From positions 1 through 24,140 of the IMG/VR virus record IMGVR_UViG_3300020573_000037: a DNA stretch of 24,140 nucleotides. One strand, written 5' to 3'. The notes beneath the pieces were generated by a model. The model was not told the origin of the DNA. It made no database searches and saw only the letters and a program-made list of their open reading frames with translations. This document shows positions 6,356-9,487 of this stretch, one piece after another (within the stretch, counting starts at the first letter, position 1; every line of letters starts with the position of its first letter). Both the position numbers and the translations under genes were made by a program. This stretch comes from a virus.

Positions 6356-6889
6356 ATGACAAAGCAGATAATTAACGTAGGTTCATCAGGAAATGATGGT
6401 ACTGGTGATAAGCTAAGAATAGCATTCACAAAAACAAATCAAAACTTTGATGAAGTATATGCTAATCTTGCTGTTGTAACTTCTAATGTTGAAAATATTT
6501 TAAGTTCTTCTAATGTTTTTAATAATTATGCCAATACTGTTGGATTATCAGCAAACAACTATGCTGGTGTAATGGCAAATAGCTCCAACTCATATGCAAA
6601 TTCTATTTCATCCAACATATCATCCTTTCTAATCGCAGCAAATGATTTTAGTAATCTTGTAAATACAAATTTTACAGTAACAAACACCGCTTTTCAAGTA
6701 GCTAATAGTGCATTCGATAAGGCTAATACTGTTGGCGTAAGTATTCCTGCAACTAGTAAAGGACAACCCGGTAATTTGCAAGGAATGTTTGCAGCTAATA
6801 GCACCTTTCTTTATTATTGCACCAGCGACTATGTTGACGGCGTTGCTGATATATGGAAAAGAAGTAGTTGGTCTGGCGATACCTGGTAA
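6356..6889 (+). CDS. Short fibre-like virion protein, 177 aa
   Basis: The N-terminus (residues 5-35) has the motif [13 protein letters not shown] followed by F[11 protein letters not shown]. This motif is common at the start of virion fibres in T4-like phages and is nearly repeated in the next gene, so I take it as the domain that docks to the particle. A short shaft follows with Asn/Tyr/Ala repeats and three N-x-x-F heptads. The C-terminus (about residue 130 on) has [10 protein letters not shown] and [10 protein letters not shown], ending [12 protein letters not shown], a small module I recall from other phage fibre ends. It is complete but much shorter than its neighbour and looks like a fibre without most of its shaft. 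The ribosome-binding site (AAAGAGAA) is modest. Confidence 0.75.
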
Positions 6890-6891
6890 TA

Positions 6892-6899
6892 ACTAAATA
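6892..6899 (+). promoter_or_regulatory. Putative late promoter octamer ACTAAATA
   Basis: This is the same octamer as at 3021, 15928, 21093 and 24133. It lies just after the stop codon at 6889 and 28 bases before the start at 6928, so it could give the second fibre gene its own late transcript. Confidence 0.5.
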
Positions 6900-6927
6900 A
6901 ATACAAACATTCATAGAGTAGAGTATA

Positions 6928-8373
6928 ATGGCAGACTTTTCAAAAGAAACAATCAATATTGGTTCCAGTTCTAATGATGGTACGGGTGACACCATGCGTG
7001 TCTCGTTCCTTAAGACCAATAATAACTTTACGGAACTATATCAACATGCGGCTAATCTAAGTGCCAACGTTGAAACATTGCAATCTGATCTAAATCAGTC
7101 ATCTGGTGATTTATTGCTTCTTGGTGGGGCTGCGTTCGATCAAGCAAATTTGGCTTATGATTCCTCTAATAATTTAATTCTAGTTTCACAGACATCGATC
7201 ATCATTGCCAATAACGCTTCCGATAGAGCAAATGAAGCTGGATCGATTGCCAATGCAGCTAATATTTTTGCTTATGGAAGTTTCTTTAATAGTGCTAATG
7301 CTCACACAAAAGCTAACGCTGCTTTCACAGTAGCCAATGCCGCATTCACTCTGGCAAATACTATTTCATTAACTAATGCTACCGCAGTAGAACAAGCAGA
7401 AAAACTTAATAGAGCCTATACAAAGGCTAATGATGCTTATGATCTTGCTTCAGGAACATATCTATTTTCGATAGGTACAGCAACCAATGCCGCAGCTGGT
7501 TTTACTAGAACCAATACGGTTTATGGATATCTCAATACAGCATCTTTTAAAACAAACTCAAACTTCACCGTAACAAACTCCAGCTATGTTCTAACTAATA
7601 CAGTTTATGCGGTTCTCAATACAGCTTATTTGACAACAAACTCTGCCTACAGACATGCTAATGCCGCTTTTGATAACTCAAATAATAAAGTAAACATTGC
7701 TAATGGTACCGTTACTGGTTCATTTACCATTCAAGATACTGTAACAATCGATACCCATCACAACATTGTGGGTTCTGGTGCAACATTTAGAACTGGTGTA
7801 GCCAACTTTGGTGTTAGAATTTATCCTGGTGGTGGATCAGATCCCACAGAATCAACGCTAAGACTAACTGATTCCTCTTTTGCCACACTAGGTATATTCA
7901 CAGCAAACAATACCGAAGTAACGATTGGATCAAACACGGCAATTCCTGTTATCGTTAGATATAACGGTTCACAGATGGGCAGATTTGATAACACGGGTCT
8001 ATATGTCAGTGGTGAAGTTGCTGGATTTTATTCCGATGAAAGACTAAAGACAAATATTTCGCCAATTCAGAATGCTCTGGAAAAAGTTGAAAAACTCAAA
8101 GGCGTAACGTATACAGGTAATGAACTTGCTGCCAAGTTCGGTTTCACTGACACAAATGAGCAAGTTGGTCTATTATCGCAAGATGTAGAAAAGGTGTTGC
8201 CTCAGGTAATCAAGCACGCTCCTTTTGATCTAGCCGTAGATGAAAAAGGAAAACAATACTCTATATCCGGTGAAAACTATAAGACGGTTCAATACGAAAA
8301 AATTGTTCCATTACTAGTAGAAGCCATCAAAGAGTTGTCAGCTAGAGTAAAAGAATTAGAAGGTAAGAAATGA
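6928..8373 (+). CDS. Tail fibre protein with docking domain, heptad shaft and S74 chaperone
   Basis: The 481-residue product has three parts. Residues 8-38 repeat the I-N-I-G-S-S-S-N-D-G-T-G-D docking motif of the preceding gene. Residues about 65-255 are a repeat shaft; 196-251 are eight consecutive heptads of the form N-x-x-(F/Y)-x-x-x, with the aromatic displaced by one residue in the second unit. Residues about 366-481 are a peptidase S74 chaperone domain beginning F-Y-S-D-E-R-L-K-T-N, with probable catalytic Ser369 and Lys374, and ending in a charged coiled coil. S74 domains assist trimer folding and then cleave themselves off. The chaperone resembles that of the fibre at the window start but differs in sequence, so the two are paralogues. 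The stop overlaps the next start as ATGA, suggesting coupled translation with the glycine-rich protein. Confidence 0.9.
   Translation: MADFSKETINIGSSSNDGTGDTMRVSFLKTNNNFTELYQHAANLSANVETLQSDLNQSSGDLLLLGGAAFDQANLAYDSSNNLILVSQTSIIIANNASDRANEAGSIANAANIFAYGSFFNSANAHTKANAAFTVANAAFTLANTISLTNATAVEQAEKLNRAYTKANDAYDLASGTYLFSIGTATNAAAGFTRTNTVYGYLNTASFKTNSNFTVTNSSYVLTNTVYAVLNTAYLTTNSAYRHANAAFDNSNNKVNIANGTVTGSFTIQDTVTIDTHHNIVGSGATFRTGVANFGVRIYPGGGSDPTESTLRLTDSSFATLGIFTANNTEVTIGSNTAIPVIVRYNGSQMGRFDNTGLYVSGEVAGFYSDERLKTNISPIQNALEKVEKLKGVTYTGNELAAKFGFTDTNEQVGLLSQDVEKVLPQVIKHAPFDLAVDEKGKQYSISGENYKTVQYEKIVPLLVEAIKELSARVKELEGKK
7513..7680 (+). repeat. 21-bp-period heptad array in the second fibre
   Basis: Eight 21-base units encode N-x-x-(F/Y)-x-x-x heptads (residues 196-251). 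This is the same protein pattern as at 335-523, with different DNA sequence. Confidence 0.75.
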
Positions 8374-9086
8374 CGCTACCCGCTAATGGTGTAATGTCTA
8401 TAAGTTTGATTTCTACCTTATGCCGTGGAAGTAACACAGCATTTGGTATCACAAACGAGGACGCTCGCTGGCTGGCTGGCAAAGAACGTGGTGTTATCAA
8501 GTTCTCCGATTTTTATAGTAAGCCTGTGCCAGGAAGTAGAACATATTCAACTCCTGGCACATACACCTTTCTAGTACCCGCACATGAATCTCTTTCCGTT
8601 GATGTCAGAGGCGCAGGTGGAGGAGGTGGTGGAGGAGGTTATTGGTTTAATGCTATTCTAGCTGGCGGACCAATCGTCGCCGCATGTGGTAATCCTGGCG
8701 GCCCAGGTTCTTCATCATCGTTTGGTAATGTTATCGCTAACGGTGGTGATGCTGGTTCTAATGGTTGCGGACTAACAAGAGGCGCCGATGGCGAAGATGG
8801 CGGCGGTTCAGGAGGTTCAGTTACTACTGGTGGAGGTTCTGCTGGTGGTGCCGGTGGTGTTGCAAATAGAAATCAAGGCGTCGGCGATCAAGGCTTTGGC
8901 GGTAATGGTGGCGGCGGCGGAAGAACAACTAAGACTTATACATTTCTAGCGATCGGTAGTCTAGCTTGGAAAGACTCAGTGACTATTGTAGTTGGCACTG
9001 GTGGTTTTGGTGGTCCTACAATTCCTGCAATTACACCTGCTGGTAATCCTGGAGCACACGGCCAAGTAACAGTAACTTGGTCATAG
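8370..9086 (+). CDS. Glycine-rich putative tail-tip adhesin
   Basis: The 238-residue product opens with L-P-A-N-G-V-M-S-I-S-L-I-S and later G-V-I-K-F-S-D-F-Y-S-K (residues about 3-50), a short module I recall from many phage virion proteins. A Y-S-T-P-G-T-Y-T-F beta segment (58-66) follows. From residue 81 the protein is dominated by glycine tracts, including a run of eight Gly, interrupted by short loops, and it ends G-Q-V-T-V-T-W-S. Glycine-rich repeats of this type form polyglycine-II helices in gp38-type adhesins of T-even-like phages, with the loops contacting the receptor. By analogy this would be the receptor-binding tip working with the adjacent fibre. It overlaps the fibre stop by 4 bases. 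Assignment as an adhesin is inference from composition and position; no gp38-specific sequence match is claimed. Confidence 0.75.
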   Translation: MTLPANGVMSISLISTLCRGSNTAFGITNEDARWLAGKERGVIKFSDFYSKPVPGSRTYSTPGTYTFLVPAHESLSVDVRGAGGGGGGGGYWFNAILAGGPIVAACGNPGGPGSSSSFGNVIANGGDAGSNGCGLTRGADGEDGGGSGGSVTTGGGSAGGAGGVANRNQGVGDQGFGGNGGGGGRTTKTYTFLAIGSLAWKDSVTIVVGTGGFGGPTIPAITPAGNPGAHGQVTVTWS

Positions 9087-9094
9087 GAGAATAC

Positions 9095-9487
9095 ATGGAA
9101 GAAGAACTTTATATCCGTGTTGAAAACGGTCAGGCAGTAGATCATCCAATTACTGGTTGGAATCTTCGCATGATTTATCCTAATGCCAGTGAAGATAATA
9201 TACCAAAAGGATTTGAGAGATTTACTCGCATGCCTATACCATCTCTAGATAGATATCAAATTCTGGAGGGTGTAGTATATGAAAAATCAAATTATGGTTG
9301 GCATGATAGATACATAATAAGAGATATGACCGACGAAGAAAAACTAGTCTTTGATGCTCAAGTAGAATCCATCGAAGAATTACGTTCATATCCTAGAGAG
9401 AAACTAGAAGCATTAAATACTTTGCTTGAAGCAGGAGAAATCGAACCTACTCCAGAAGCGATGCTAACGTATTTAAGAAATTTGTGA
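9095..9487 (+). CDS. Unknown protein of the fibre cassette, 130 aa
   Basis: I chose the ATG at 9095 because an AGGAG lies 6 bases upstream. The frame can be extended to a TTG at 9077 inside the previous gene, but that has no ribosome-binding site. The product begins M-E-E-E-L-Y-I-R-V-E-N-G and contains W-N-L-R-M-I-Y-P. It ends with a charged helical region, M-T-D-E-E-K-L-V-F-D-A-Q and P-R-E-K-L-E-A-L-N. It has no signal or membrane segment. Its place directly after a fibre and a putative adhesin suggests a fibre-assembly or fibre-tip role, but I do not recognise the family. Confidence 0.75.
   Translation: MEEELYIRVENGQAVDHPITGWNLRMIYPNASEDNIPKGFERFTRMPIPSLDRYQILEGVVYEKSNYGWHDRYIIRDMTDEEKLVFDAQVESIEELRSYPREKLEALNTLLEAGEIEPTPEAMLTYLRNL

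Follow-up and report, generated by a model that had tools for sequence, protein, structure and literature searches.

Fibre genes with T4 gp10-like docking heads at a probable gp15–gp16 insertion slot in an uncultured T4-like phage and its relatives

The window analysed here is a 24,140-bp virus record (IMG/VR IMGVR_UViG_3300020573_000037) with a T4-like structural module, derived from an uncultured relative of T4. Four genes, i.e. fibA, fibB, a gene for a Gly-rich protein, and orf4, are present between gp15 and gp16, confirming the interruption of the T4 gene order that had been proposed in an earlier sequence-only reading. The gp15–gp16 junction is probably a recurrent insertion slot for accessory receptor-binding apparatus in this T4-like clade. 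A vague 'hypervariable region' would thereby become a testable rule: a fixed slot, a kept docking head, and a replaceable tip with its own chaperone.

The left border of the slot is gp15, the tail sheath stabiliser (5268..6344, plus strand, as are all slot genes and both borders; PF16724, E 4e-67 by hidden Markov model (HMM) search), and the right border is gp16, the small terminase (9497..9955; PF11053, E 2e-9; phrog_445, E 2e-30). The identity of gp17 is likewise given by HMM matches (PF03237 and PF17289). The end of gene 15 (96164) and the start of gene 16 (96173) in T4T are separated by 8 nt, so that gene 16 directly follows gene 15 in T4, as previously stated. The first slot gene, fibA (6356..6889, 177 aa), matches phrog_677 (E 1e-11) and PF07880 (24.2 bits, curated cut-off 25). 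It is followed by fibB (6928..8373, 481 aa; Peptidase_S74, PF13884, 54.8 bits, cut-off 22; PF07880, 21.1 bits, cut-off 25), the gene for the Gly-rich protein (8370..9086, 238 aa), a tip or adhesin candidate according to its AlphaFold model, structure matches, and composition, and orf4 (9095..9487, 130 aa), a candidate tail-fibre assembly chaperone according to its AlphaFold model and a Foldseek search of BFVD. The fibB stop codon and the start of the Gly-rich gene overlap as ATGA at 8370-8373, and to this extent the earlier description of overlapping, closely spaced genes stands. The start of orf4 is best set at ATG 9095, which is preceded by AGGAG and at which the homologues also begin, and orf4 therefore does not overlap the Gly-rich gene.

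One contig (L005) is 100% identical to the window over 3601-7781, and the order gp15-fibA-fibB is therefore not the product of one assembly's join; the joins from fibB through the Gly-rich gene and orf4 to gp16 are based on the window record and on the same order in relatives. The GC content at third codon positions is 0.22–0.27 in the four slot genes, 0.30–0.33 in gp14-gp15, 0.36–0.41 in gp16-gp18, and 0.47 in gp13.

Relatives were metagenome contigs picked by scans with gp15 (best 80 of 96 matches) and gp17 (best 80 of 322). After removal of identical ones, 75 distinct gp15–gp16 intervals were obtained, including that of the window, of which 29 are empty (under 100 nt) and 46 are occupied. 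The first gene carries a docking head in 45 of the 46 occupied intervals, the exception being L136, and one, two, and no head-bearing genes are present in 37, 8, and 1 of them, respectively. Insertions of at least 300 nt, as detected by tblastn, occur in this interval in 44 of 72 cases; the corresponding figures for the other junctions are 12/66 (13-14), 5/77 (14-15), 10/71 (16-17), 1/60 (17-18), and 0/47 (18-19). Variable insertion between g15 and g18, the feature of the hyperplastic region of cyanophages, is thus also seen here. The sequence-only reading had set its proposal against the case in which all relatives have the same four genes with uniform divergence. Interval synteny does not bear this case out, with 29 of the 75 intervals empty and the remainder varying in content.

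The window segment 3601-11700 was compared at the DNA level with 11 chosen loci. On the right, similarity returns at 9489-9496 in eight of the nine compared loci that hold this flank; in L064, with an orf4 of its own, it starts at 9095. On the left, similarity stops at 6235-6255 in L006, L007, L008, L010, L053, and L056, and extends to 6463, inside the fibA head, in L029 and L124. The last ~24 residues of gp15 are variable among the relatives. In L012, gp15 appeared to be fused in frame to the slot fibre, but this was an artefact of tblastn running past the gp15 stop codon, which follows residue 335; the fibre is separate. The DNA identity to the window in the left and right flanks is 71.2 and 86.9%, respectively, for L053, whose slot is empty, and 71.8 and 93.8% for L029, which contains another cassette. 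A gp17 tree was constructed for the 60 of the 75 loci that retain at least 300 residues of gp17, which leaves out L029 and L053. In this tree, the window joins first L124 and then L007, both with other cassettes, and then L057, whose slot is empty. In the nearest gp16-gp17 relatives whose contigs cover the slot, it is therefore empty or otherwise filled, which supports turnover.

The empty state requires 11 changes on the gp17 tree, at least seven of them on starred branches, and the four loci with tip cassettes fall in four places, at least three of which are forced. These counts are of changes in which gain and loss are inseparable, and the long branches of L074 and L146 are unsafe. Slot content is also partly vertical: all labels require 18 changes compared with a shuffled mean of 32.5, and 16 short single-head loci require 3. 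Both this clustering and the blindness of the tree to gain versus loss would suit the idea that the slot is nothing more than the hyperplastic region already known in cyanophages, described as hypervariable between g15 and g18 with 4–14 inserted genes in cyanomyoviruses (PMC2984593), and that an ancestral cassette was lost repeatedly without block exchange or dedicated docking. We regard this as distinctly unlikely because the contents vary, not their presence alone (L007, L008, and L010 have other fibre ends on a common head and shaft), and because the closest orf4 is found in L064 (55%; tree support 99) and not in the gp17 neighbours L124, L007, and L057. Exchange of slot content, alongside partial inheritance, is supported, and the slot block may have a role in host range.

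The N-terminal docking motif that had been noticed in both fibA and fibB was confirmed: the two heads are 51% identical over ~50 aligned residues. The fibA head is of the GDKLR type, and that of fibB, at about residues 5-48, is of the GDTMR type. A profile built from 22 heads (20 from the slot and one each from L071 and L149) matched residues 2-36 of T4 gp10 in PDB at E 6.4e-12, another gp10 at E 2e-6, a gp9 at E 3e-5, and T4 gp9 at E 0.008; by profile comparison, the heads resemble the T4 gp9/gp10 N-terminal family. In T4, gp7 is bound by the N-terminal domain of gp9, and gp10 is similar to gp9 over its first 200 residues (PMC3004832); gp10-like modules are also described in the CBA120 tailspike TSP4 (PMC8825819).

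A search of 3887 plus-strand open reading frames (ORFs) with the head profile identified 100 head-bearing ORFs, including duplicates of one contig. Wherever the contig includes gp15, these were the first gene or genes after it, except in L071 and L149. In L071, a head-bearing fibre (L071:6457-8148) lies between gp14 and gp15, as judged from an ORF-based interval, and in L149 one (L149:4699-6753) lies between gp16 and gp17. Of 15 records of 30–174 kb, 11 were found to contain a single head each and four to contain none, and all four have an empty slot. The matches to PF07880 (7 of 10 records) and phrog_677 (5 of 7) are confined to the slot gene, and therefore no second gp9/gp10 was seen in these records, which may be incomplete; gp8 was detected in 7 of 7.

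All 11 distinct tandem pairs have a first head reading GD(K/P)xR and a second reading GD(T/V)xR, and a second position in the head (NFxE) separates 10 of the 11. This comparison leaves out L005, which is identical to the window, and L071, and its related rows are not independent. In a tree of the tandem heads alone, the two positions fall on two sides of one branch, requiring one change compared with a shuffled mean of 7.3, with a support of 65 from few columns. These results render doubtful the earlier suggestion that the two fibres compete for one site, and we hold with moderate confidence that the two head types reflect two non-equivalent sites. T4 itself has homologous N-termini on two proteins, gp9 and gp10 (PMC3004832). 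A model in which fibA and fibB substitute for each other at one site, yielding mixed virions, would be compatible with the homology and 51% identity of their heads, with the K or P found in 8 of 64 single heads (counted without removal of duplicates and partly from cut contigs), and with the tree obtained after adding 42 single heads, in which first- and second-position heads do not form single groups and require six changes each (at least three and four forced, respectively); given the consistent order of the tandem pairs, we consider this improbable.

The fibA protein consists of a docking head, a short region, and an IWKR..W C-terminus, and has the appearance of a first fibre that is short or has been shortened internally. 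Its C-terminal 59 residues are shared with the ends of longer first fibres, i.e. those of 914 aa in L029, 660 aa in L124/L035, and 288 aa in L069; the difference between them therefore lies in the middle. As its head region and C-terminus correspond to the two ends of the fibres of L029 and L124/L035, fibA could be a non-functional, decaying remainder of a long first fibre. The intact frame and the retention of both ends argue against such decay, as does the presence of short single head-bearing proteins (225–352 aa) alone in the slot in eleven loci belonging to one starred clade, and we think decay somewhat unlikely.

In fibB, the docking head is followed by a heptad-like shaft and a predicted self-cleaving S74 chaperone end. 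This end contains Ser369 and Lys374, five residues apart, as a putative catalytic pair, and a loose pattern for such a pair fits 37 of the 45 S74 ORFs in the loci. S74-type domains are reportedly employed by the fibres of S16 and other phages and then lost by autoproteolysis (PMC7289586). L007, L008, and L010 share the fibB DNA to about 7559 (69.6–73.0% identity) and the protein to residue 242-262; beyond this, they have a different end and two other small genes, and they lack fibA. The block is therefore composite. The leader 5′ of fibB matches the gp15–fibre junction of L006 and L007. The earlier proposal of a module exchangeable as a block is thus upheld with regard to turnover and is refined to a composite block, in which we read the exchanged unit as a tip module (the self-cleaving S74 fibre end, Gly-rich tip, and chaperone) and the docking head as staying in the slot.

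The Gly-rich protein contains 26% Gly overall and 43% in residues 83-185. Its AlphaFold model (predicted local distance difference test score (pLDDT) 74.5) was matched to the Pam3 fibre structures 7ypx (Z 9.3, 134 aligned residues, root-mean-square deviation (rmsd) 4.9) and 7yfw (Z 8.5, 119 aligned, rmsd 2.4) and, with 31% identity, to the Bxb1 tail tip 9d93 (Z 9.3); the next unrelated match has a Z score of 5.1. In a plain Foldseek search, Pam3 and Bxb1 also occupied the first two ranks (Foldseek E 1.8e-3). The predicted fold thus resembles Pam3 and Bxb1 tail-tip proteins, and it appears to include a distal part like that of Pam3 gp24 (TNF-like plus Gly-rich).

With an S74 fibre end bearing a Ser/Lys pair and a Gly-rich gene directly downstream, the arrangement also resembles that of the gp37-gp38 type. 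Among 16 distinct Gly-rich genes, 13 are located directly after an S74 gene and 13 directly before an orf4 gene. This co-occurrence bears on the possibility that the Gly-rich protein is a separate short fibre that docks on its own, with orf4 as its dedicated chaperone and fibB as an independent, tipless fibre. Such a pair exists in Pam3, where gp24 uses N-terminal helices of its own for docking and gp25 folds it (PMC9608196), and the best structural neighbours of the Gly-rich model are the Pam3 fibre chains and the Bxb1 tail-tip protein. The frequent position directly after, and often overlapping, an S74 fibre gene speaks against independence, as does the N-terminal part of the model, in which three short helices are predicted at low confidence; S16 gp38 is reported to have the same number, whereas Pam3 gp24 has a long helix. 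A separate Gly-rich fibre is thus rather unlikely.

The orf4 product, previously labelled an unknown protein, lacks a sequence family, and this label can be amended on the basis of the predicted fold. Its AlphaFold model (pLDDT 92.2) gave 11 matches at E 0.001 or better in BFVD, four of which carry the name phage tail assembly chaperone (at best E 2e-7, template modelling (TM) score 0.53); the two top matches are unnamed, and a DUF4376 model was matched at E 1.8e-3. Thus, orf4 appears to have a fold like those of proteins annotated as Phage_tail_APC, DUF4376, or Tfa and probably resembles phage tail assembly chaperones. The fibre of phage V22 requires a downstream chaperone whose relatives carry DUF4376 (PMC7289586).

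The tip module was also identified upstream of gp13 in L190 and L192, and at the same place in L102 there is a Gly-rich gene without orf4. A recent move of the module between the slot and this gp13-side fibre locus was considered and rejected, as the orf4 tree groups all 11 slot copies (support 99); the P450 tree alone places the gp13-side copy of L190 among the slot copies (support 88).

In some relatives, although not in the window, the S74/Gly-rich/orf4 module ends with a cytochrome P450 gene. This gene is located before gp16 or in the slot in L028 (L028:11355-12512), L049, L031, L021, L037, L060, L122, and L185, and upstream of gp13 in L190 and L192; it also ends the module in two further relatives, L188 and L191. 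The assignment is based on PF00067 (58.8 bits, cut-off 22.8) and TIGR04538 (E about 1e-33, under its cut-off). The ExxR motif is present in all nine listed ORFs, and an FGHG.H.C-like heme stretch is present in the aligned ORFs, none of which matched a stricter pattern with a final Gly. No match was found by tblastn in the phage collection at E 1e-3, and a two-pattern scan of genome contigs confirmed no relative. Related P450 genes were observed in other virus contigs (L193-L204), with no recognised fibre module in the stretch retrieved. We know of no P450 in any phage adhesion module.

The following mechanism is proposed for the insertion slot. The fibA and fibB proteins would be anchored to the virion by their T4 gp10/gp9-type heads, most likely at the baseplate periphery, by analogy with T4, in which the gp9 N-terminus sits on gp7. 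The S74 chaperone would aid trimerisation of fibB and then cut itself off, after which the Gly-rich protein may cap the exposed fibre end as a receptor-reading tip, like gp38 on S16-type gp37, with orf4 as the chaperone that folds or loads this tip. Exchange could involve the whole slot content, or the fibre end, tip, and chaperone with the docking head retained.

In addition to the partly vertical inheritance and the choice of relatives by gp15/gp17 similarity described above, several observations weigh against this interpretation. Both heads of the window score below the curated PF07880 cut-off, which is passed in 3 of 10 relative records, and control genomes were also matched in the family searches at loose limits, 2 of 14 by PF07880 (always under the cut-off) and 6 of 14 by phrog_677. 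The expected partner of the head, gp7, is weakly recognisable, with any match in 2 of 7 records, and the length of the gp7-like protein is without relation to slot occupancy. A longer gp7-like protein had been considered as a mark of an occupied slot because of two empty-slot relatives, G003 (718 aa) and G004 (790 aa), and this was refuted by two others, in which the protein has 978 and 1090 aa, and by a relative with an occupied slot in which it is split (797 + 209 aa). In the Gly-rich model, residues 1-50, comprising the three short helices, have low confidence (mean pLDDT 40–68 by tens), no PDB match reached E 0.001 in plain Foldseek, and S16 gp38 (6F45) was not among the matches listed, an absence that excludes nothing. 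For orf4, the best Pfam (E 0.045) and PHROG (E 0.066) matches are not chaperones and NCBIfam gave none; its best PDB match (Z 4.4) is an unrelated chain, and TfaMu and Pam3 gp25 were not among the matches listed, which likewise excludes nothing. A tblastn search of the phage collection with orf4 gave no match, and single-protein scans of viral contigs, one with orf4 and one with the Gly-rich protein, yielded no confirmed relative, although relatives are present in the loci compared here. In five isolates, finally, no head was found in the tested gp15–gp16 junction genes (five in Melnitz, one in P-SSM2, and none to test in Mosig); the head rule is therefore limited to the clade of the window. 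The sole one of these isolates with a head is P-RSM6, in which it lies in the baseplate cluster.

As a more speculative extension, unlikely as it stands, the slot could be a mobile counterpart of the T4 gp9-gp10 pair, in which two head types in a fixed order would serve two non-equivalent baseplate sites, a portable kit (S74 fibre end, Gly-rich tip, and chaperone) would be exchanged, and, in some relatives, a P450 would mature the tip or alter the receptor. If the insertion slot is as proposed here, the content of one interval could help to predict host sharing among uncultured phages, and the tandem heads would offer a natural way of testing how many types of receptor-binding protein a single baseplate can take.

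Other fibre-related features were observed in the window and its relatives. A long fibre gene with an S74 end (86-3016), whose frame is open to the contig edge, is followed by a gene for a DUF7936 protein (3059-3406), and similar-looking proteins are encoded after fibre genes in L010 and L011. In L123, three tandem paralogues (361, 349, and 381 aa; L123:3965-7262) follow the head-bearing gene of the slot; the two that were scanned showed weak similarity, under the cut-off, to polysaccharide lyase 14, a possible enzymatic alternative. A DUF6321 domain (PF19846, E 9e-15) is encoded at 17731-19206, between gp20 and gp21. The same domain is found between gp15 and gp16 in P-SSM2 and two genes upstream of the neighbour region of the large terminase in S-SCSM1, and it therefore occurs at different junctions in related phages. 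The T4 late promoter TATAAATA has one match in the window, outside the cassette, where 1.6 are expected by chance; sigma-70-type and terminator-like sites are not above those in shuffled sequence, and no tRNA or Rfam matches were found in the window.

Several known systems resemble parts of this slot. The g15–g18 region of cyanomyoviruses occupies the same junction of the structural module and also varies between relatives; the cargo named there is metabolic (plastoquinone-related and carbon metabolism), whereas in 45 of the 46 occupied slots the first gene is fibre-like and bears a head. The cargo of the window is fibre-related, with no metabolic genes in the slot, although P450 occurs in some relatives. 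Among the isolates, the Melnitz junction contains five genes, one of which encodes a tail fibre assembly protein that matches Phage_tail_APC, that of P-SSM2 contains one, with DUF6321, and that of Mosig contains none; in S-SCSM1, three genes separate an S74 fibre from the large terminase. T4 gp9/gp10 share the homologous N-terminal head, which in the window is instead joined to fibre-like proteins at gp15–gp16 and which searches of the empty-slot records did not detect. The S16-type gp37/gp38 system is alike in that an S74-ended fibre directly precedes a Gly-rich tip, a candidate here, but fibB has its own gp10/gp9-like head and a gp15–gp16 location, and the fold neighbours of the Gly-rich protein are Pam3 and Bxb1. 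Pam3 gp24 and gp25 provide a similar Gly-rich distal fold (Z 9.3) with an adjoining chaperone-like gene; the window differs in its preceding S74 fibre and, as far as the low-confidence N-terminal part of the model shows, in having no long docking helix predicted in the Gly-rich protein.

Fibre-plus-chaperone modules are common to distant Alteromonas phages (PMC10579305), and the V22/A5 host recognition module is alike in this combination. There, a cognate chaperone is shared between distant phages, whereas orf4 is related at most by fold (DUF4376 model, E 1.8e-3) and not by sequence. Marine phage islands contain variable fibre, gp38-like, and terminase genes (PMC3909814). Our literature search, which was not exhaustive, encountered no description of the head rule. 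Pelagimyophages have a host recognition cluster (VrlC to gp14) upstream of gp14 (PMC7029224), which is likewise an island of variable fibres within the structural region, in phages that are related; the slot of the window, downstream of gp15, is a second site. Hypervariability between g15 and g18 and exchangeable fibre-plus-chaperone modules are thus already published, and the slot described here is a modestly novel refinement of them.

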